NCBI GenBank assembly: GCA_019638695.1
Contig: JAHBTG010000027.1
Span: 1-35,109, forward strand
Length of the DNA stretch: 35,109 nucleotides
Source: Bacteroidota bacterium
GTDB lineage: Bacteria > Bacteroidota > Bacteroidia > J057 > JAJTIE01
Reading direction: 5' to 3'
Of the stretch, positions 8,625-26,406 are shown piece by piece. How positions within the stretch are numbered: position 1 is the stretch's first letter; each line of letters begins with the position of its first letter. A model generated the notes under the pieces. That model made no database searches and was not told the origin of the DNA. It was given only the letters and a program-made list of their open reading frames with translations. The translations under genes and the position numbers were made by a program.

Positions 8625-9044
8625 ATGAATCTGCCTGATAAACCTGTGCTATTGTTTGATGGGGTTTGCAACTTCTGCAACAGTACCGTCAATTTTATCA
8701 TGAAGCGGGACCGCTCCCGGAGCATCTTGTTTGCCAGCCTGCAGTCTGCAGAAGGCGCTGCGCTCATGCGGCACTTTGGGCAGGACCCCGGGAACCTGTA
8801 CAGCATCGTGCTGATACATAAGGGCAGGTATTATGATTGCAGCACTGCCGCTTTGTGCACGGCCCGCATCATGGGTGGCATCTGGCGTCCTATGGGATGG
8901 GCAGGTTTGGTCTTTCCCCGTTTTATCAGAGATGCCGTTTACCGCTGGATAGCGCGCAACCGTTATAGCTGGTTTGGCAAGAAAGAGGCCTGCCGCATTC
9001 CCACACCCGAGGAACGGGCCCGTTTCTATTCCCTCACTGCTTAG
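8625..9044 (+). CDS. DCC family thiol-disulfide oxidoreductase (DUF393)
   Basis: This 139-aa protein has the diagnostic N-terminal motif L-L-F-D-G-V-C-N-F-C, with the redox pair Cys15 and Cys18, and then N-F-I-M-K-R-D. The C-terminal half carries the usual Y-R-W-I-A-R-N-R-Y-S-W-F-G segment. DCC proteins have a thioredoxin-like fold and are predicted disulfide oxidoreductases without a fixed substrate. The gene follows the HTTM gene by 18 bp on the same strand, which suggests the pair act together, perhaps on cysteines of the membrane protein (inference). Its last 4 bp overlap the convergent argH stop. Confidence 0.9.
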   Translation: MNLPDKPVLLFDGVCNFCNSTVNFIMKRDRSRSILFASLQSAEGAALMRHFGQDPGNLYSIVLIHKGRYYDCSTAALCTARIMGGIWRPMGWAGLVFPRFIRDAVYRWIARNRYSWFGKKEACRIPTPEERARFYSLTA

Positions 9045-10372
9045 GCAAGGAGGTTTTTTTCGGCCTCCAGGGATGTACTCATATCCCAGCGGCCTGCCGT
9101 CGCCTGCCAGCGTTTCCGGATGTTGTCCAGTCCCAGGTTCCCCAGGCTACCTGTATGGGTATGGCTGAGGGTTGCCGGGCGTACAAAGGTACCGGCCTCT
9201 ATGGACTGGCCTACCTGATGATAGGCATCCCGGAAGCTCTCTCCCTGTTTTACCCGCTCGTTCACCGCATCTACACTGAAGGCGTAGCGATAAAGTTCGT
9301 CCTCCAGTATATCCTTGCGCACTTCCATGTGTTCAAACATCAGGACTGTCATCCGCAGGCATTGCTCCAGCTCGTCGAATGCCGGGAAAAAGTGCTCTTT
9401 CAGGAGCTGCAGATCGCGGTGATAGCCGTGCGGCAGGTTGGTAGTGAGCAATGCTATCTCATTGGGCAGCGCCATCAGGCGGTTGCAGCGCGCCCGTATC
9501 AGCTCAAATACATCCGGATTCTTCTTGTGGGGCATGATGCTGCTCCCCGTGGTAAGCCTGGCAGGAAAGGAGATAAAGCTGAAGTTCTGGCACAGGTACA
9601 ATATGGCATCCATGGCCATTTTGCCCAGCGTGGCGGCTATGCCGGCCAGCGCCTGCGCTACCACCCGCTCCGTCTTGCCGCGGCCCATCTGGGCGTATAT
9701 GCTGTTGGTCACCGTGTCTTCAAAGCCCAGCAGGTTCGTTACCAGGTCTCTATCCAGCGGAAAGGAAGAACCATAGCCTGCGGCAGAGCCCAGGGGATTG
9801 CGGTTGTTGATACGATAGGCGGCTTCCAGCGAGATGAGATCATCCGTCAGGCTCTCGGCATAAGCGCTCAGCCACAATCCGAAGCTGCTGGGCATGGCCA
9901 CCTGGAAATGCGTATAGCCCGGCAATAGATGCGCCTTTAGCTCATCCGCCCGTCTCAGCCAGCACGTAAACACTTGCTCTATTTGCGGTAGCAATGCTCG
10001 CAACCTGTGGCGTACATACAGCCGCACATCCAGCAGCACCTGATCATTGCGGCTGCGCCCGGTATGCAGGCGCTTGCCCACATCTCCCAGCTGCCGGGTG
10101 AGCAGCAGTTCCACCTGGCTGTGGACGTCCTCAACCCCCGGCGCTATGGAGAACCGCCCTTCCCCGATCTCCCGGTGGATACGCAGCAACCCCTCCCGCA
10201 GCAAGGCGCCTTCTGTTGCGCTCAAGAGCCCTGCTTTCGTCAGCATATGGCTGTGCGCCAGCGAACCCAGCACATCCCAGGGTGCCAGCAGCAGGTCAAA
10301 TTCGGCATCCCGGCCTATGGTAAATGCTTCTACCAGCTGATCTGTATCGGAGTCTTTCTGCCAGAGTTTCAT
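9041..10372 (-). CDS. argH: Argininosuccinate lyase
   Basis: This 443-aa enzyme splits argininosuccinate into arginine and fumarate, the last step of arginine synthesis, in the cytosol. The fumarase/aspartase superfamily signature G-S-S-I-M-P-H-K-K-N-P-D is intact and carries the catalytic serine region. T-G-R-S-R-N-D-Q and T-H-F-Q-V-A-M-P (with the catalytic His) are also present. The start ATG overlaps the stop of the upstream peptidase gene by 4 nt (ATGA), showing translational coupling. It is the last gene of the operon and converges on the DCC gene with a 4-bp overlap, leaving no room for a terminator between them. Confidence 0.97.
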   Translation of the reverse strand: MKLWQKDSDTDQLVEAFTIGRDAEFDLLLAPWDVLGSLAHSHMLTKAGLLSATEGALLREGLLRIHREIGEGRFSIAPGVEDVHSQVELLLTRQLGDVGKRLHTGRSRNDQVLLDVRLYVRHRLRALLPQIEQVFTCWLRRADELKAHLLPGYTHFQVAMPSSFGLWLSAYAESLTDDLISLEAAYRINNRNPLGSAAGYGSSFPLDRDLVTNLLGFEDTVTNSIYAQMGRGKTERVVAQALAGIAATLGKMAMDAILYLCQNFSFISFPARLTTGSSIMPHKKNPDVFELIRARCNRLMALPNEIALLTTNLPHGYHRDLQLLKEHFFPAFDELEQCLRMTVLMFEHMEVRKDILEDELYRYAFSVDAVNERVKQGESFRDAYHQVGQSIEAGTFVRPATLSHTHTGSLGNLGLDNIRKRWQATAGRWDMSTSLEAEKNLLA

Positions 10373-11433
10373 GACAATAGGTTATTCAGGAGGTTGATGT
10401 AGAAGTCTATCCCTTGTTCCAGTTCTGCCACATAGAGGTACTCGTCTGCCGTATGGCTGCGGGCAGAATCCCCCGGACCTGCCTTGAGGCTGGGAAAAGG
10501 CATCAGCGCCTGGTCAGACAGCGTGGGGCTTCCATAGGGCTGGCTCCCCAGCGCCAGTCCGGCCTGCACCAGCGGGTGGTCCGCCGGGATGCCGCTGGGG
10601 TTCAGCCGGGTACTGCGGGGTATTACCTCGCAACTCGTATACCGGCATATGATCGCCAGCAACTCTTCATGGGTATAGGCGTCCGTACTGCGGATGTCTA
10701 CCACGAAGGTGCAGCGGTCGGGCACTACATTGTGCTGTGTGCCTGCAGATACCTGGGTGACGCTCATGTTTACCGGTCCCAGCAGGGCAGACTCGCGGGG
10801 GAAGCGATAGTGGCGGAACCACTCGATGGCATCCACTGCCAGGTACAAGGCGTTGATCCCTTCTTCCCTGGCGGCATGCCCGGCTTGTCCGTAGGCAGTG
10901 CAGTCCAGTACCATAAGTCCCTTCTCTGCCACGGCCAGTTGTAACCGGGTGGGCTCTCCCACAAGGGCGCAATCTATAGGCGGTAGCTGTGGCAGCAGGG
11001 CCGCTATGCCGTTTTGCCCGCTGGTTTCTTCTTCTGCCGTACCCGCCCAGATAAGGTTGTAACGCAGCCGCTCCTGTGCATAAAAGTGACGGAAGGCGGC
11101 CATCAATGCCACCAGGCATCCCCCGGCATCATTACTGCCCAGACCATACAGCCTGCCGTTCTCCAGGGTGGGGGAGAAGGGGTCGCGGGTGTACCCTGCA
11201 TTGGGGCGTACGGTATCGTGGTGGCTGTTGAGCAGCAGGGTGGGTTTTCCTGCATCAAAATGCAGGTTAGCGGCCCACACGTTGTGGAGGTAGCGGTGAG
11301 CGGTAATACCCGCCGAGGAGAGCTGGGCCTGAAGAATAGCTGCAGTGGCGCTTTCTTCCCCGCTGAAGGAGGGGGTGGCAATCAGCCTGCTCAGCAGGTC
11401 CAGGGCGTCTTCCAGCCGTTCGCGGGAGGTCAT
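10369..11433 (-). CDS. argE: M20 family N-acyl amino-acid deacylase (ArgE-like)
   Basis: This 354-aa M20 zinc peptidase has the metal ligands and catalytic acids in order: L-L-N-S-H-H-D-T-V (His and Asp), G-S-N-D-A-G-G (bridging Asp), A-G-T-A-E-E-E-T-S (catalytic Glu and ligand), V-G-E-P-T, and a C-terminal S-H-T-A-D-E-Y (His). In clusters with an acyl-ornithine transcarbamylase, this enzyme removes the acyl group from N-acyl-citrulline rather than from N-acyl-ornithine. Given Ala90 in the neighbouring transcarbamylase, N-succinyl-citrulline is the expected substrate (inference). It overlaps argB and argH by 4 nt on each side. Specificity among M20 enzymes cannot be read from motifs alone. 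Confidence 0.9.
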   Translation of the reverse strand: MTSRERLEDALDLLSRLIATPSFSGEESATAAILQAQLSSAGITAHRYLHNVWAANLHFDAGKPTLLLNSHHDTVRPNAGYTRDPFSPTLENGRLYGLGSNDAGGCLVALMAAFRHFYAQERLRYNLIWAGTAEEETSGQNGIAALLPQLPPIDCALVGEPTRLQLAVAEKGLMVLDCTAYGQAGHAAREEGINALYLAVDAIEWFRHYRFPRESALLGPVNMSVTQVSAGTQHNVVPDRCTFVVDIRSTDAYTHEELLAIICRYTSCEVIPRSTRLNPSGIPADHPLVQAGLALGSQPYGSPTLSDQALMPFPSLKAGPGDSARSHTADEYLYVAELEQGIDFYINLLNNLLS

Positions 11434-12227
11434 AGCCGTATGCGGGTGAAGTTTCGCCCGGTGCGGAAGGCTACTGCCAGGAAGTCTGCCGGTTGAAACA
11501 GCACTACTTCCTCCACCCCCTGCTCCAGGGTGCGGAAAGCATTCTCCAGCTTGGGGAGCATCCCGGCGAATATCCTGCCCTCTGCCCGCAGACGGTCATA
11601 ATCTCCGGGGGAGAGCTCTTCCACCAGGCTGGTGAGGTCTTCCACATCCAGCAATACGCCCGGTTTATCAAAGCAATACAGCAACCGCACGCGGTATACC
11701 TGTGACAGGCAGATGGCCACGCCGGAGGCAATGGTGTCGGCATTGGTATTGAGCAGGTTGCCTGCCCCGTCGTGGGTGAGCGCGCAGAGTACGGGTGTCA
11801 GTCCCACGTTCAGCAGTTGGGTAAAGGGTTCGGGCTTCAGGTGTTCCACCGCGAGGTCGCCCACAAAACCGTAGTCAATATCCGGATGCTGGCGCTTGTG
11901 GGCAGGCAGGCAGTTGGCATCTGCACCGGTGAGGCCGATGGCATTAATGCCCCTGGCCTGCATTTGGGCTACCAGGGTGCGGTTCAGCAGACCGCCGTAT
12001 ACCATGGTCACCAGTTCCAGCGTCTCCCGGTCTGTAATGCGGCGGCCGTCTACCATGCGGGCGGCAATGCCCAGGCGCTCCCCTATGCGGGTAGCTGCCT
12101 TGCCACCTCCGTGCACCAGGATAAACGGCTGGCGGAGGGTGGCCAGTTCGCGCAGCAGGCCGTCCAGCACCTGGGCATGGTCCATGACATTGCCGCCTAT
12201 TTTAATAACCAGTAGTTCGGGAAGCAT
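11430..12227 (-). CDS. argB: N-acyl-L-glutamate kinase (ArgB)
   Basis: This 265-aa amino-acid-kinase-fold protein phosphorylates the side-chain carboxylate of N-acyl-glutamate using ATP. Visible signatures are V-I-K-I-G-G-N-V near the N-terminus, I-L-V-H-G-G-G-K-A-A-T (substrate/phosphate loop), R-R-I-T-D-R-E-T-L-E, N-T-N-A-D-T-I-A-S-G and the C-terminal G-M-L-P-K-L-E-N-A nucleotide segment. Length is normal for the single-domain form. It lacks the N-terminal helix linked with arginine feedback in hexameric kinases, so inhibition by arginine is less certain. The acyl group is probably succinyl, to judge from the transcarbamylase. It starts 48 bp after argF' and overlaps argE by 4 nt. Confidence 0.95.
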   Translation of the reverse strand: MLPELLVIKIGGNVMDHAQVLDGLLRELATLRQPFILVHGGGKAATRIGERLGIAARMVDGRRITDRETLELVTMVYGGLLNRTLVAQMQARGINAIGLTGADANCLPAHKRQHPDIDYGFVGDLAVEHLKPEPFTQLLNVGLTPVLCALTHDGAGNLLNTNADTIASGVAICLSQVYRVRLLYCFDKPGVLLDVEDLTSLVEELSPGDYDRLRAEGRIFAGMLPKLENAFRTLEQGVEEVVLFQPADFLAVAFRTGRNFTRIRL

Positions 12228-12275: not shown

Positions 12276-13265
12276 CTACAGCTTGGCAGAGTATACGGAT
12301 GGTGAGGTACTCTCGTTCGTCAGCCCCTCCAGCAGGCGGACCAGGATTGCCTGGGCGGCCCACACGCGGTTGCCGGCCTGTGCCTGCACCAGCGCATGCG
12401 GACCTTCCAGCAGCTCGTGGCTCAGTTCCACCCCGCGGCGCACCGGCAGGCAGTGCATAATGCGGGTGGATGCCTTGGGCAGATGTGCCTCGGTGAGCAT
12501 CCAGCCGGTGTCCCGGCAAAGGACCTGTCCATAGGGTTCCCAGGCGGACCAGCTCTTTATATAGACAAAGTCTGCATCCGCCACTGCTTCCCGCAGGTGG
12601 TGAGTGATCTGTGCGCCCGTGGTAAACTGCGGATCCAGCGCATAGCCCTGCGGGTGTGCAATGGTCAGCGGATAGCCGGCTGCCAGCATCCATTCCGCAA
12701 AGCTGTTGGCCACGGCCTGCGGTAAAGCCCGCGGGTGGGGCGCCCAGGCCAGCACCACTTTGGGCGCCTGCGGGGCGTGCCAGTGTTCCTGCACGGTTAC
12801 CAGGTCTGCCAGGCTTTGCAACGGATGGCGGGTGGCGCTTTCCAGGCTCAGGACAGGGACGCTGCTGTATCGTTGGAACTGGCGGATAAAGGTCTCGGCA
12901 TAATCCGCTGCCCGGTCCTGCAAACCGGGGAATGCACGTATCCCTACTATATCACAGTATTGGGCGATAACTGCCGCCGCATCGGCGATATGTTCTGCCT
13001 TGTCCCCATCCATCACAGCCCCGTCCTGTGTTTCCAGGCGCCAGCCTTCCTGGTCCATATTCATCACCATGACGTCCATACCCAGGTGGCGTGCAGCTTT
13101 CTGCGTGCTCATCCGGGTGCGCAGGCTGGGGTTGAGAAAGAGCAGGCCCAGTGTCTTGCGCTGTCCCAGAGATGCGTGTACCCAGGGTGCGGCTTTTAGC
13201 TGGCGTGCCAGGTGCGCTAATGCTGAGGGGTCACCCGCATCGGCTACGGAAAGGAACTGCTTCAT
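12276..13265 (-). CDS. argF': N-acyl-ornithine carbamoyltransferase, predicted N-succinyl type
   Basis: This 329-aa protein has the carbamoyl-phosphate loop S-L-R-T-R-M-S-T-Q-K, H-P-L-Q-S-L-A-D (instead of the H-P-x-Q-x-x-x-D of ordinary OTC) and H-C-L-P-V-R-R-G. The Q-K-A-A-R-H-L-G-M segment and the W-A-P-H-P-R-A-L-P-Q-A-V motif are typical of N-acetyl/N-succinyl-ornithine transcarbamylases. The specificity residue (Glu92 in Xanthomonas AOTCase, Pro90 in Bacteroides fragilis SOTCase) is Ala90 here, within D-G-D-K-A-E-H. Alanine at that position was reported to turn AOTCase into an SOTCase, so N-succinyl-L-ornithine is the predicted substrate and N-succinyl-citrulline the product. Its ATG overlaps the argD stop by 4 nt. 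Confidence 0.93.
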   Translation of the reverse strand: MKQFLSVADAGDPSALAHLARQLKAAPWVHASLGQRKTLGLLFLNPSLRTRMSTQKAARHLGMDVMVMNMDQEGWRLETQDGAVMDGDKAEHIADAAAVIAQYCDIVGIRAFPGLQDRAADYAETFIRQFQRYSSVPVLSLESATRHPLQSLADLVTVQEHWHAPQAPKVVLAWAPHPRALPQAVANSFAEWMLAAGYPLTIAHPQGYALDPQFTTGAQITHHLREAVADADFVYIKSWSAWEPYGQVLCRDTGWMLTEAHLPKASTRIMHCLPVRRGVELSHELLEGPHALVQAQAGNRVWAAQAILVRLLEGLTNESTSPSVYSAKL

Positions 13266-14395
13266 GAGGTAGCCAGGACTTGGGTGAGCGCCTGGGTAAA
13301 TACCTCCATCTGCGCGGCGGGCAGGTTCAGCGCCGGGAGCAACCGCAGGGTGTGCGGTTCCATAGAAGTGCCGGTGAAGATATGGTGCTCCATCAGCAGG
13401 CGCTTGCGGACGGGTGCACAGGGTTGGTTGAGTTGAAGTCCGATCATCAGGCCATGTCCCCGCACTTCTGCCACACCGGGGACCTTGCGGAGGGCATCCA
13501 TCCAGTATTCTCCCGATAGCCGGGCGTGGCTTAGTAGGTTCTCTTTATTCAGAATGTTCAGAACCGACAGGCTAGCTGCACAAGCCAGGTAATTGCCCCC
13601 GAAGGTGGTGCCCAGCATACCATGCCGGGGGATAATGGCAGGACTGCTCAGTACAGCTCCTATCGGGAAGCCGTTTCCCATACCCTTTGCCACGCTGATG
13701 ATGTCGGCTTGCACCCCGGCTATCTGGTGCGCAAAGAAGTGACCGCTCCGGCCGAACCCGCTTTGCACCTCGTCCAGTACCAGTAGGGCACCCAGTTTGT
13801 CACACCACTGCCGTAACGCCTGCAGGAAAGCCGGGGTGGGCACCCTGACGCCCGCCACACCCTGTATCCCTTCTACAATGAAGGCGGCAATATCTGTGCG
13901 TCCTTCCAGGTTGTTCAGCGCTTCTATGTCGTTAAACGGCAGGAAGCTGACATGGCCGCTGTGGTTGGCAGGGGCTACCATCTGGGGGTGGTCAGTGGCT
14001 TCCACTGCCAGCGAGGTGCGTCCATGAAAAGAGCCGGAGAAGGCAATGATATGAGGCTTGCCGGTATGAAAGCTGGCCAGTTTCAGCGCATTTTCATTGG
14101 CTTCTGCACCGCTGTTGCACAGGAACAGCGCATAGTCCGGGTAGCCGCACTGCTCCCCCAGTTGCCGGGCCAGCTCCTGTTGCAGGGGGATGTGCACCGA
14201 GTTGGAATAGAAGCCTATACGCTGCAGTTGTGCGGTCAGTTGCTCCACGTAATGGGGGTGACTGTGGCCTATACTGATCACCGCGTGCCCTCCGTAAAGA
14301 TCCAGGTAGCGGGTGCCATCTGCGCCGTATACCCAATGCCCTTCGGCATGGGTGGGCGTGATGTCATAAAGGGGATATACATCAAGTAGATTCAT
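13262..14395 (-). CDS. argD: N-acyl-ornithine aminotransferase (class III, PLP)
   Basis: This is a 377-aa class III aminotransferase. I start it at ATG 14395 (MNLLDVYPLYDI); the 11 codons upstream are AT-rich and not homologous. Landmarks are Y-L-D-L-Y-G-G-H-A-V near residue 33, S-G-A-E-A-N-E-N-A-L-K (PLP phosphate contact), F-H-G-R-T, D-E-V-Q-S-G-F-G-R-S and V-A-K-G-M-G-N-G-F-P-I-G, with Lys forming the Schiff base. It transaminates N-acyl-glutamate semialdehyde with glutamate to give N-acyl-ornithine. Membership of this operon favours the arginine role over a catabolic ornithine or succinylornithine role. It lies 36 bp after argC and overlaps argF' by 4 nt. Confidence 0.95.
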   Translation of the reverse strand: MNLLDVYPLYDITPTHAEGHWVYGADGTRYLDLYGGHAVISIGHSHPHYVEQLTAQLQRIGFYSNSVHIPLQQELARQLGEQCGYPDYALFLCNSGAEANENALKLASFHTGKPHIIAFSGSFHGRTSLAVEATDHPQMVAPANHSGHVSFLPFNDIEALNNLEGRTDIAAFIVEGIQGVAGVRVPTPAFLQALRQWCDKLGALLVLDEVQSGFGRSGHFFAHQIAGVQADIISVAKGMGNGFPIGAVLSSPAIIPRHGMLGTTFGGNYLACAASLSVLNILNKENLLSHARLSGEYWMDALRKVPGVAEVRGHGLMIGLQLNQPCAPVRKRLLMEHHIFTGTSMEPHTLRLLPALNLPAAQMEVFTQALTQVLATS

Positions 14396-14431: not shown

Positions 14432-15400
14432 TTAAAATGCACTTCCTTTAAGCTTTAACCCCGTCGTTTCTTCCCAGTCCATCATCAGGTTGAGGTTCTG
14501 CACGGCCTGCCCGCTGGCGCCTTTCAGCAGGTTGTCGATAACCGCTGTGATGACGGCCTGACCTTGCAGTAACTGCACCTGCAGCAGGCATTTGTTGGTA
14601 TTGGTCACCATTTTCACATCCAGGTCCCGGTCGGTTACATGGGTGAAAGGATGGCCTGCATAATAAGCTGCGTACAGTTCCTGCAACTGAGTGAGGCTGC
14701 CCTCAAAAGGCAGGTAGGCCGTGACCAGGATACCGCGGGCAAAGTTGCCCCGGTAAGGCACAAAATACACCGGCACCTCTGCGTTGGACGGATGCGCCGT
14801 GCGCAACAACTGGCTCACTTCCTGCAGATGCTGGTGGGAGAAGAGCTTGTAGTGGCTGATATTGGCCGACCGCCAGGAAAAATGCGTGGTCTCGGTAGGT
14901 TTTTGCCCGGCGCCGGTACTGCCTGTGATACCCGACAAGTGTACCGGCCCCTGCACCCACCCGGAGGCCGCCAGCGGCAACAGCGCCAGCTGGATGGCGG
15001 TAGCAAAACAGCCCGGGTTGGCAATGTGCCGTGCCTGCCGGATTTCCGTGCGGTGCTGTTCGGGGAGGCCGTATACGAATCCTTCGTTACCGGGCAGCAG
15101 CCGGTAATCCTGGCTCAGATCTATGATGCGCAGGTGGTGCAGGTGAGGGTTCGCCTCCAGGAAGGCGCGGCTCTGGCCGTGCCCCATGCACAGGAACAGC
15201 ACATCTGCTTCAGGGTCGGCCTCGGCTGAAAACCGCAGGTCCGTGTCTCCTGCCAGGTCTGTATGCACTTGAGCGACAGGGTTACCGGCATTGCTGGTGC
15301 TTTGGACAGCGGTGAGCATTACCTCAGGGTGGTGCAGGAGTATGCGGATAAGCTCTCCGGCGGTATAACCGGCTCCGCCTGCCAGGGTTACTTTAGTCAT
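14432..15400 (-). CDS. argC: N-acyl-gamma-glutamyl-phosphate reductase
   Basis: This 322-aa enzyme makes N-acyl-glutamate semialdehyde with NADPH. The N-terminal Rossmann motif T-L-A-G-G-A-G-Y-T-A-G-E-L-I-R is the ArgC hallmark. The catalytic cysteine lies in N-P-G-C-F-A-T-A (about residue 132), followed by G-I-T-G-S-T-G-A-G and the substrate-binding H-R/Y-x-N-x-x-E-like region near V-P-Y-R-G-N-F-A-R-G. Length fits the short (type 2) bacterial form. Its ATG lies inside the end of argG (8-nt overlap), so translation is coupled. Confidence 0.96.
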   Translation of the reverse strand: MTKVTLAGGAGYTAGELIRILLHHPEVMLTAVQSTSNAGNPVAQVHTDLAGDTDLRFSAEADPEADVLFLCMGHGQSRAFLEANPHLHHLRIIDLSQDYRLLPGNEGFVYGLPEQHRTEIRQARHIANPGCFATAIQLALLPLAASGWVQGPVHLSGITGSTGAGQKPTETTHFSWRSANISHYKLFSHQHLQEVSQLLRTAHPSNAEVPVYFVPYRGNFARGILVTAYLPFEGSLTQLQELYAAYYAGHPFTHVTDRDLDVKMVTNTNKCLLQVQLLQGQAVITAVIDNLLKGASGQAVQNLNLMMDWEETTGLKLKGSAF

Positions 15401-16592
15401 GGTGGCTGATATTGGAGTTTACGGCATGGAAAATGCGGTTCTGGTTACCAAATATGCGGGCAAAACCCCGCACGTCCTCGCCTGTCCAGCCGGTGTTCAT
15501 CTCGCCATAGGCGCCGAAACGGCTGTTCATCAGGTCATGGGGCGATGCTATGCCCAGCAACTGATAGCGTCCGGGGTGCAGTTGCACATGCACAGTGCCG
15601 GATACTTGCTGCTGGCTGCTGAGGAGGAATGCCTCGATATCCCGCATGGCGGGATCCAGGAACTGCCCTTCGTGCAGCCAGTTGCCATAAAAGAGGGCCA
15701 GTTGCTGCTTGTGGTAGATCTGCCACTTGGTGAGCACATGTTTCTCCAGCAGTTCGTGTGCCTTGATGAGGATAAGCGGTGCCGCCGCCTGAAAACCTAC
15801 CCGGCCTTTAATGCCGATGATGGTATCTCCCACGTGAATATCCCGGCCGATGCCGTAAGGCGCCGCCAGCGTTTCCAGGGCGCGGATAACCGCCACAGGC
15901 GTCATCTCCTGGCCATTCAGCGCAGTGGGTTCACCTTGTGTGAAGGTGAGGGTAATCTCCTGTGGACGGGTGGCCGTAGCTTGCACGGGCCAGGCTTCTT
16001 CCGGTAGCGGCAGGCGGCTGCCCAGAGTCTCGCGCCCGCCTACGGAGGTGCCCCACAGGCCCTGGTTTATGGAGTAAGCCGCCTTGCTAGAATCCATAGC
16101 TATACCTTTTGCCTGCAGGTAGGCGATTTCCTGCTCGCGGCTCAGCTGCTGGTCCCGGATGGGGGTGATGATCTCGGCTTCTGGCGCCAGCGACTGAAAG
16201 ATCATGTCAAACCGCACCTGGTCGTTACCGGCGCCCGTGCTGCCGTGTGCGATGGCCTGGGCACCTATCGCCCGTGCTGCACGGGCGATAGCTACCGCCT
16301 GAAACACCCGCTCCGCGCTTACGCTCAGCGGGTAGGTGTTGTTCTTGAGCACATTGCCGAATAGCAGGAAGCGCAGGCAGTCCCGGTAGTAGGCAGGCAC
16401 CACCTCCACGGCTTTCCAGCTGGCGGCGCCCATCTGCCGGGCACGGATGCCTGTCTGCTCCAGTTCGGATGCGCTGAAACCGCCGGTATCTACCGTGACG
16501 GCGTGCACTTCATAGCCCAGGTCCTGGCTAAGGTATACGATGCAGTAGCTGGTATCCAGCCCGCCGCTATAGGCGAGGAGTACTTTTTTCAT
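15393..16592 (-). CDS. argG: Argininosuccinate synthase
   Basis: This 399-aa enzyme joins citrulline and aspartate using ATP. The P-loop-type pyrophosphatase motif V-L-L-A-Y-S-G-G-L-D-T-S is at the very N-terminus, followed by the A-H-G-S-T-G-A-G-N-D-Q-V-R-F loop that binds citrulline and aspartate. G-V-G-G-x-E (here S-V-G-G-R-E) and G-I-G-R-D-I-H-V-G-D follow. I start at ATG 16592 (MKKVLLAYSGG); the 39 codons upstream in the same frame are not homologous and cross the GNAT stop. It follows GNAT by 13 bp and overlaps argC by 8 nt. Confidence 0.96.
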   Translation of the reverse strand: MKKVLLAYSGGLDTSYCIVYLSQDLGYEVHAVTVDTGGFSASELEQTGIRARQMGAASWKAVEVVPAYYRDCLRFLLFGNVLKNNTYPLSVSAERVFQAVAIARAARAIGAQAIAHGSTGAGNDQVRFDMIFQSLAPEAEIITPIRDQQLSREQEIAYLQAKGIAMDSSKAAYSINQGLWGTSVGGRETLGSRLPLPEEAWPVQATATRPQEITLTFTQGEPTALNGQEMTPVAVIRALETLAAPYGIGRDIHVGDTIIGIKGRVGFQAAAPLILIKAHELLEKHVLTKWQIYHKQQLALFYGNWLHEGQFLDPAMRDIEAFLLSSQQQVSGTVHVQLHPGRYQLLGIASPHDLMNSRFGAYGEMNTGWTGEDVRGFARIFGNQNRIFHAVNSNISHHD

Positions 16593-16605: not shown

Positions 16606-17310
16606 TTAGTAAAAGAGATTAAGAATGGGAGTATGTCTTCTGAGCTGGCGCAGCAGGATCTTATGCTTGATGCGCATCCAGCGGCCATAGAGTTTGAGGT
16701 TCTGGCCAATGTCTTTTTTCTCCCGCCTTCGTTTTATTTTCTCGGCGCGCTTTTGTTTTTTCTCCAGTTCGGGCGGGATGAACAGCATGGCGGTGCACAT
16801 GCAGTTCTTGCGCTCCTTCATCATCAGGATATCGTAATTGACGCAGCTGCGGCACCCGGCCCAGAACTCCTCATCATCTGTGAGCTCGCTGTAGGTAACA
16901 GGTCTGTAACCCAGCGAGGAGTTGATCTTCATGACTGCCAGACCGGTGGTGAGGCCAAAGATGAGCGCCCCGGGGTATTTCTGGCGGCTGAGCCTGAATA
17001 TACGTTCTTTGATCTTGGTAGCCAGTCCGTACTTGCGGTACCGTGGATTGACGATAAGCCCGCTATTGGCCACATACTGGCCGTGGCCCCAGGTCTCTAT
17101 ATAACAGAATCCGGCCCATTTGCCTTGTTTGGTCAGGGCAATGACGGCCTTGCCCTCGGTCATTTTGGTGCGGATATATTCCGGTGTGCGTTTGGCAATG
17201 CCGGTGCCGCGCGCTTTGGCCGAGCTGGCCATTTCTTCCACAATCTGCTCAGCATAGCCTGCATGCTGGGCGGTGGCCACAATGATATCGAATTTGACTT
17301 CTTTTTTCAT
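16606..17310 (-). CDS. GNAT acyltransferase, first gene of arginine operon (candidate N-acylglutamate synthase)
   Basis: This 234-aa protein carries a GNAT domain in about residues 10-150. The acyl-CoA pyrophosphate loop is G-L-I-V-N-P-R-Y-R-K-Y-G-L-A-T-K-I, fitting R/Q-x-x-G-x-G/A. A basic, helical C-terminal tail (about 185-234) and a cluster of cysteines (W-A-G-C-R-S-C, N-C-M-C-T) follow. No argA, argJ or ArgA-like kinase fusion is present in the operon, yet the pathway needs an enzyme to acylate glutamate, so this gene is the natural candidate, with acetyl-CoA or succinyl-CoA as donor. That is inference from position; the family is broad. Its leader contains a possible attenuator (17364-17502). 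Confidence 0.85.
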   Translation of the reverse strand: MKKEVKFDIIVATAQHAGYAEQIVEEMASSAKARGTGIAKRTPEYIRTKMTEGKAVIALTKQGKWAGFCYIETWGHGQYVANSGLIVNPRYRKYGLATKIKERIFRLSRQKYPGALIFGLTTGLAVMKINSSLGYRPVTYSELTDDEEFWAGCRSCVNYDILMMKERKNCMCTAMLFIPPELEKKQKRAEKIKRRREKKDIGQNLKLYGRWMRIKHKILLRQLRRHTPILNLFY

Positions 17311-17707: not shown

Positions 17708-17800
17708 TGTCCTGTGGTCAGGATATGCCCTGCTCTCGCGCGGCTTCAGCCGCGTGAGCACCCTCCTGCGCTGCGCTGCTGGCACACACAGGGTACAGCT

Positions 17801-17853
17801 CAATCCTTTATTTGTACTTTTTTCTTGATAAAAAAGTACCCAAAAATCAAGGC
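17801..17853 (+). repeat. 53-bp repeat core, copy A
   Basis: These 53 bases are identical to 22795-22847. The centre is a perfect inverted repeat, GTACTTTTTT / AAAAAAGTAC with a 6-nt loop (17814-17839), able to form a hairpin on either strand. Confidence 0.9.
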
Positions 17854-21979: not shown

Positions 21980-22071
21980 GGTGAGGTGGCTGAGTGGTCT
22001 AAAGCAGCACTTTGCTAAAGTGCCGTATGGGTCAAACCGTACCGAGGGTTCGAATCCCTCCCTCACCACCA
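21980..22071 (+). tRNA. tRNA-Ser (anticodon GCU)
   Basis: The acceptor stem is GGTGAGG / CCTCACC. The anticodon stem-loop is GCACT-TTGCTAA-AGTGC, with GCU at the anticodon. A long variable arm and the T arm GAGGG-TTCGAAT-CCCTC complete a class II serine tRNA. The discriminator is A and CCA is encoded, unlike in the next two tRNAs. Decodes AGC/AGU. Confidence 0.95.
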
Positions 22072-22104
22072 GTGATATTCTGCTGCGGATGTCGCTTATT
22101 TATT

Positions 22105-22179
22105 CGAGGTGTAGCGCAGTCCGGCTAGCGCACCTGCTTTGGGAGCAGGGGGTCGCAGGTTCGAATCCTGCCACCTCGA
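22105..22179 (+). tRNA. tRNA-Pro (anticodon UGG)
   Basis: The acceptor stem is CGAGGTG / CACCTCG, with the C1-G72 pair usual for proline tRNA. The anticodon stem-loop is CCTGC-TTTGGGA-GCAGG and the T arm GCAGG-TTCGAAT-CCTGC. No CCA is encoded. Second gene of the tRNA operon. Confidence 0.95.
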
Positions 22180-22214
22180 CGCAGGGGAAATCCCTCTCAG
22201 CCTGCATCCGTTTT

Positions 22215-22288
22215 GCCCCTATAGCTCAACCGGATAGAGCATCAGATTTCTAATCTGACGGTTACAGGTTCGAGTCCTGTTGGGGGTA
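22215..22288 (+). tRNA. tRNA-Arg (anticodon UCU)
   Basis: The acceptor stem is GCCCCTA / TGGGGGT with a G1-U72 wobble. The anticodon stem-loop is TCAGA-TTTCTAA-TCTGA and the T arm ACAGG-TTCGAGT-CCTGT. The discriminator is A and no CCA is encoded. Decodes AGA/AGG. Third gene of the tRNA operon; no clear terminator follows. Confidence 0.94.
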
Positions 22289-22707
22289 CACTCTTTCGGT
22301 TCTGGAGATTTGAGATGCTATACCGGTTGTTTTCCCTTAGGGCCGGCCTCCCGTTGTCTCTTGCCTGTCACCCTGAGTTTGTCTTAGCGCCTCCTGGCTT
22401 AACGCCGTTATGCCGGGGATTCCAAAACCAGTTCGATAGGATGGGCCGCCTACTCTCTCGACCCCCGCATCCCCTTTTGCTGCGTGAAAGATGTCCGTGG
22501 GGCCCTATATACCCCCCTGCCCAGCAGCCTAAGCGAAAAGGGCGAGACTGCGGGGAGAGGACTTAGCAGGCACTCCAGGATAATGATTCTGGTTCTCTTC
22601 CTTTTGAAGGAGGGGTGGGGGGATTCTGCTGCCGCACCCCCTGCCCTCATTCCAGGGGCTCCGCTCCCCCGTTCAGACCGTTCTGTACTCCCCCCCGGGC
22701 GTGTCAT

Positions 22708-22729: not shown

Positions 22730-22794
22730 TGTTCCGTGACCAGGCGTACTGTGTGAACGGCTTCCTGCTCTGCTGGCGCATACAGGGTATAGCC

Positions 22795-22847
22795 CAATCC
22801 TTTATTTGTACTTTTTTCTTGATAAAAAAGTACCCAAAAATCAAGGC
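22795..22847 (+). repeat. 53-bp repeat core, copy B
   Basis: The bases are identical to 17801-17853, including the hairpin GTACTTTTTT / AAAAAAGTAC at 22808-22833. Flanking similarity extends upstream (TACAGGGTA.AGC.CAATCC) and resumes 78 bp downstream. Confidence 0.9.
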
Positions 22848-26326: not shown

Positions 26327-26334
26327 CTTGGAAG

Positions 26335-26406
26335 TACACCCGGGTGGAATCGAACCACCACCTCAGGTTCCGGAGACCTACGTTGTATCCATTCAACTAC
26401 GGGTGC
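26335..26406 (-). tRNA. tRNA-Arg (anticodon CCG)
   Basis: The acceptor stem is GCACCCG / CGGGTGT with a G1-U72 wobble. The D arm is GTTG..CAAC, the anticodon stem-loop TAGGT-CTCCGGA-ACCTG and the T arm GGTGG-TTCGATT-CCACC. The discriminator is A and CCA is not encoded. Decodes CGG. Confidence 0.95.

Follow-up and report, generated by a model that had tools for sequence, protein, structure and literature searches.

The window analyzed here, a stretch of 35,109 nucleotides, carries eight genes for arginine synthesis that are all read from the minus strand, in the order GNAT-argG-argC-argD-argF'-argB-argE-argH. The first gene (16606 to 17310) encodes a GNAT acyltransferase that is, by position, BT3761-like and a candidate N-succinylglutamate synthase; its product matches Pfam acetyltransferase models weakly (Acetyltransf_1, E 1.6e-4). 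It is followed by argG for argininosuccinate synthase (15393 to 16592), with an internal ATG taken as the start (best NCBIfam E 2.8e-91, all models below their curated cut-offs); argC for an N-acylglutamyl-phosphate reductase (14432 to 15400; TIGR01850, 289 bits, above the cut-off of 233.6); and argD for an N-acylornithine aminotransferase (13262 to 14395), also placed at an internal ATG (TIGR00707, 327 bits, below the cut-off of 410). The gene at the center of this analysis, argF' (12276 to 13265), encodes a knotted-type transcarbamylase of 329 residues. Downstream lie argB for an N-acylglutamate kinase (11430 to 12227; TIGR00761, 168 bits, above the cut-off of 151), whose solved relatives carry the name acetylglutamate kinase; argE for an M20-family N-acylcitrulline deacylase and candidate desuccinylase (10369 to 11433; Peptidase_M20 and M20_dimer, with TIGR01910 DapE-ArgE at 125 bits, below its cut-off); and argH for argininosuccinate lyase (9041 to 10372; TIGR00838, 316 bits, above the cut-off of 279.5). 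From GNAT to argH, the intergenic gaps are 13, -8, 36, -4, 48, -4, and -4 bases in order, with argD overlapping argF' by 4 bases.

This arrangement is shared by many relatives. Among 80 named loci, 64 had full flanks, and the identical eight-gene order was found in 44 of these 64, while the GNAT gene was present in 47 of the 64 (median identity of 73% over 53 loci). We found no match to ArgJ in the window's genome, which is 95.9% complete, in a search whose control was positive in 10 of 14 genomes. OTCace_N matched one other ORF in this genome besides argF'. It lies beside a pyrR-like ORF and, from its motifs and this neighbor as read by eye, looks like an ATCase; the same OTCace_N search revealed no second OTCase-like gene in the genome.

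The argF' product contains the Pfam domains OTCace_N and OTCace and matches the Bacteroides fragilis SOTCase 1js1 over residues 1 to 317 (phmmer, E 6.9e-95). The best solved relatives were the B. fragilis SOTCase entries, followed by the Xanthomonas AOTCase at E about 1e-48, and identity was 47% over 316 columns to the former versus 36% over 277 columns to the latter. Given the full-length match to 1js1, the product likely adopts the trefoil-knotted fold and forms a trimer. Three sites are diagnostic for AOTCases, namely, Glu92, Asn185, and Lys302, and their SOTCase counterparts are A/S/P/V/Q, P, and V/I/E, respectively, as given in a 2015 review (PMC4581275). The argF' product has Ala90, Pro182, and Glu280 at these sites, which is a SOTCase state in each case and differs at all three from the Glu92/Asn185/Lys302 triad of the related Xanthomonas campestris AOTCase (PDB 3kzc family). 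The same review describes the succinyl group in the B. fragilis enzyme as held by H176, R178, and R278, and we found these anchors conserved as His177, Arg179, and Arg276. Substrate-site residues Trp75, Glu142, and Lys236 are likewise identical between the two enzymes. The B. fragilis SOTCase (1js1, 2fg6, and 2fg7) is thus a full-length relative that shares the M-D-G-D-K-x-E-H motif and the H/R/R anchors, but it differs from the argF' product by its Pro90 and by an Ile in place of Glu at the site of Xanthomonas Lys302. The argF' product is very probably a SOTCase with N-succinyl-L-ornithine as its substrate and an ordinary representative of this Bacteroidota family.

The automatic annotation leads elsewhere, since the top NCBIfam model for the argF' product is N-acetylornithine carbamoyltransferase, and residue 90 on its own is a single site. 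Both points would suit an AOTCase acting on N-acetylornithine in a cluster whose pathway proceeds through acetylated intermediates, like that of Xanthomonas. However, the model scores 257 bits versus a cut-off of 288, none of the three diagnostic residues is in the AOTCase state, and, of the 70 Bacteroidetes genomes in which GapMind found the pathway complete, 69 have the Bacteroides-type route and the remaining one has been reclassified to another phylum (PMC7311316). We therefore regard an acetyl-specific enzyme as very improbable. For annotation, this means that the best automatic model says N-acetylornithine carbamoyltransferase, while the residues and the gene cluster indicate a pathway with succinylated intermediates.

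The initial annotation had singled out Ala90, and its coordinates, motif, and residue numbers proved right. The codon, which marks the position of acetyl/succinyl specificity, is GCA at 12998 to 12996 on the minus strand (the plus strand reads TGC at 12996 to 12998), and the residue sits in the motif M-D-G-D-K-A-E-H-I, where it aligns with Pro90 of the B. fragilis SOTCase (1js1 and 2fg6) and with Glu92 of the Xanthomonas AOTCase. Two structures vary at this column: 2g7m, whose chain is otherwise the same as the B. fragilis SOTCase entries, has Glu opposite Ala90 and is apparently a Pro90 mutant of that enzyme, and the Xanthomonas entry 3l02 has Ala, whereas the other Xanthomonas row, 3m5c, has Glu. 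The alignment register at residue 90 is secure because the adjacent Glu91 is kept in 230 of 230 relatives. By alignment, the surrounding region is a conserved active-site region, with a chance match excluded by the E value to 1js1.

Beyond pointing to succinyl-ornithine, the initial annotation had presented Ala, as a natural variant, as what would amount to a third solution to succinyl specificity and had proposed that residue 90 be surveyed across Bacteroidota. We ran this survey on 230 relatives, comprising 80 named loci, 11 close relatives, 109 from an even draw across the phylum, and 30 that matched the Xanthomonas enzyme, with possible overlap in species between the named and the other sets. 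The 80 named loci, retrieved through exact matches to short peptides from the argF' query, form an uneven sample. The even draw matched 199 of 392 genomes, the window's genome among them, and 109 other relatives were read; the search with the Xanthomonas enzyme matched 290 of the 392. The window's own sequence was left out of the counts, as were 16 weakly matching sequences (E 6.2e-7 to 8.4e-4) that lacked a tblastn match at 1e-15. Glu was found in none of the 230 relatives, and the states at position 90 were Val (127), Ala (61), Ser (15), Thr (15), Gln (6), Pro (4), Ile (1), and Gly (1), which makes Ala the second commonest. The 109 relatives of the even draw gave Val 45, Ala 28, Ser 15, Thr 11, Gln 5, Pro 3, Ile 1, and Gly 1. 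All eight relatives read from the window's own taxonomic order have Ala90, so that Ala is a habit of this order as far as sampled. On a FastTree phylogeny of 233 rows, built with the trait columns left out, position 90 changes state at least 25 times. Since these changes occur without Glu appearing in any of the 230 relatives, position 90 is labile among non-Glu residues, and since at least eight such residues occur in the phylum, no single one of them is a special solution.

Natural variation at this site is also in print. The 2015 review lists A/S/P/V/Q as SOTCase residues that occur naturally at position 90 (PMC4581275), and GapMind (2020) reports S, P, A, or V in 61 of 69 Bacteroidetes and cites a mutant study (Shi et al. 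2007) in which these four residues led to preference for the succinyl compound (PMC7311316). Because Ala is published as a natural state and is common both in our survey and within the window's order, we rejected Ala90 as a new, or third, solution. The use of succinyl-ornithine, on the other hand, is favored by the three diagnostic residues, the succinyl anchors, the arginine cluster, and the genetics of the phylum. No assay of a natural Ala90 enzyme appeared in our literature searches, which covered open-licence papers.

Two further observations came from these searches. The 30 relatives that are nearer to the Xanthomonas AOTCase in sequence all lack Glu90 (24 Ala, 4 Thr, 1 Pro, and 1 Val). 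The second and third diagnostic residues are Pro and Val in nearly all of them, so that most look like SOTCases. In the one genome of the same family that was searched (98% complete), the best match reached only E 2.3e-6, which is below the SOTCase level, and the SOTCase gene seems to be absent from this nearest sampled relative.

The pairing of Ala90 with Glu280 is the only mildly unusual point of the argF' product. Elsewhere, the pair occurs in 1 of 61 other Ala90 relatives, which have Val (46), Ile (11), Lys (3), or Glu (1) at the Lys302 site, whereas Val90 rows have Glu there in 126 of 127 cases. The window enzyme also has Arg179 where all 80 named loci have Lys; across the 61 Ala90 rows, this site is Arg in 27, Lys in 33, and Cys in 1. 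In the survey as a whole, Glu280 goes mostly with Val90 and Lys179, and Ala90 goes mostly with Val or Ile at 280. Since the Ala90/Glu280 pair is rare, conclusions drawn from Ala90/Val280 enzymes, which are commoner, do not carry over to it exactly. One might read this pair as the mark of a relaxed enzyme that takes both acyl groups, with Ala opening the pocket and Glu280 altering its charge. However, the mutant study cited by GapMind ties Ala at this site to succinyl preference, and the 2015 review includes Glu in its list of states that SOTCases naturally have at the position of Lys302, so that a dual-specificity enzyme appears highly unlikely. The window enzyme does combine Ala90, Arg179, and Glu280, which the survey mostly places in separate SOTCase lineages, and there is a slight chance that its pocket therefore differs in charge, with changed kinetics or a wider choice of acyl groups.

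Coupling tests of residue 90 had low power, with only five independent pairs on supported branches of the tree. On average, Val90 and Glu280 changed the same way in 1.9 pairs and the opposite way in 0, with no difference in 3.1; the corresponding values were 0.3, 1.0, and 3.7 for Val90 and Lys178 and 1.2, 0, and 3.8 for Val90 and Thr89. None of the sign tests with positions 280, 178, and 89 was significant over these five pairs, and formal coupling was set aside for too little power. The raw association of Val90 with Glu280 may be due to shared ancestry. The window row lies on a long branch, and shared ancestry and drift are possible sources of its Ala90/Glu280/Arg179 combination. If the residue pairs were coupled, the window lineage would show an evolutionary trade between positions 90 and 280.

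The succinyl arginine route is already known and is the norm in Bacteroidota, according to GapMind (PMC7311316). That paper presents fitness data from Bacteroides, Echinicola, and Pedobacter in support of an arginine pathway with succinylated intermediates and names BT3761 as a probable N-succinylglutamate synthase and BT3549 as a candidate desuccinylase. By our own reading of it, the features of the pathway are a GNAT gene beside argG, a SOTCase-type transcarbamylase, a DapE-like M20 deacylase, and the lack of ArgJ, and all are found here. The locus thus resembles the described systems (BT3758, BT3760, BT3761, BT3717, and BT3549 of B. thetaiotaomicron, as well as Echinicola and Pedobacter) in its GNAT gene, its argG and argD neighbors, its transcarbamylase, and its deacylase. 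In B. thetaiotaomicron, however, the transcarbamylase and deacylase genes lie elsewhere, judging by the gene numbers in that paper, whereas here all eight genes form one tight cluster.

Published work on relatives tells us what the substrate should be, how residue 90 would act sterically, and what each neighboring gene would do, and from it we infer the following scheme. The GNAT enzyme would transfer a succinyl group onto glutamate, and ArgB, ArgC, and ArgD would work on the succinylated compounds. The SOTCase would then carbamoylate N-succinyl-L-ornithine with carbamoyl phosphate as the donor, yielding N-succinylcitrulline, such that the succinyl group would stay on from glutamate to citrulline. 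A non-Glu residue at position 90 would leave space for the succinyl chain, held by His177, Arg179, and Arg276, and Ala would be one of several interchangeable residues there. Finally, the M20 enzyme would remove the succinyl group before ArgG and ArgH act. Action of ArgB, ArgC, ArgD, and ArgE on succinyl compounds, which the initial annotation also expected, would follow from the known pathway and fits with it.

Elsewhere in the window, three related lipoprotein-like genes lie in tandem (439 to 1038, 1130 to 1747, and 1779 to 2384), with pairwise identities of 59 of 190 to 82 of 201 residues and scores far above those of 100 shuffles. Genes for tRNA-Ser, tRNA-Pro, and tRNA-Arg stand in a row on the plus strand (21980 to 22289), and another tRNA-Arg gene is on the minus strand (26334 to 26406). 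An 83-base dispersed repeat, which contains the near-palindrome GTACTTTTTTCTTGATAAAAAAGTAC, occurs at 17771 to 17853 and 22765 to 22847 in copies that are 94% identical, with more similar pieces around both copies and 35 matches across the window's genome.
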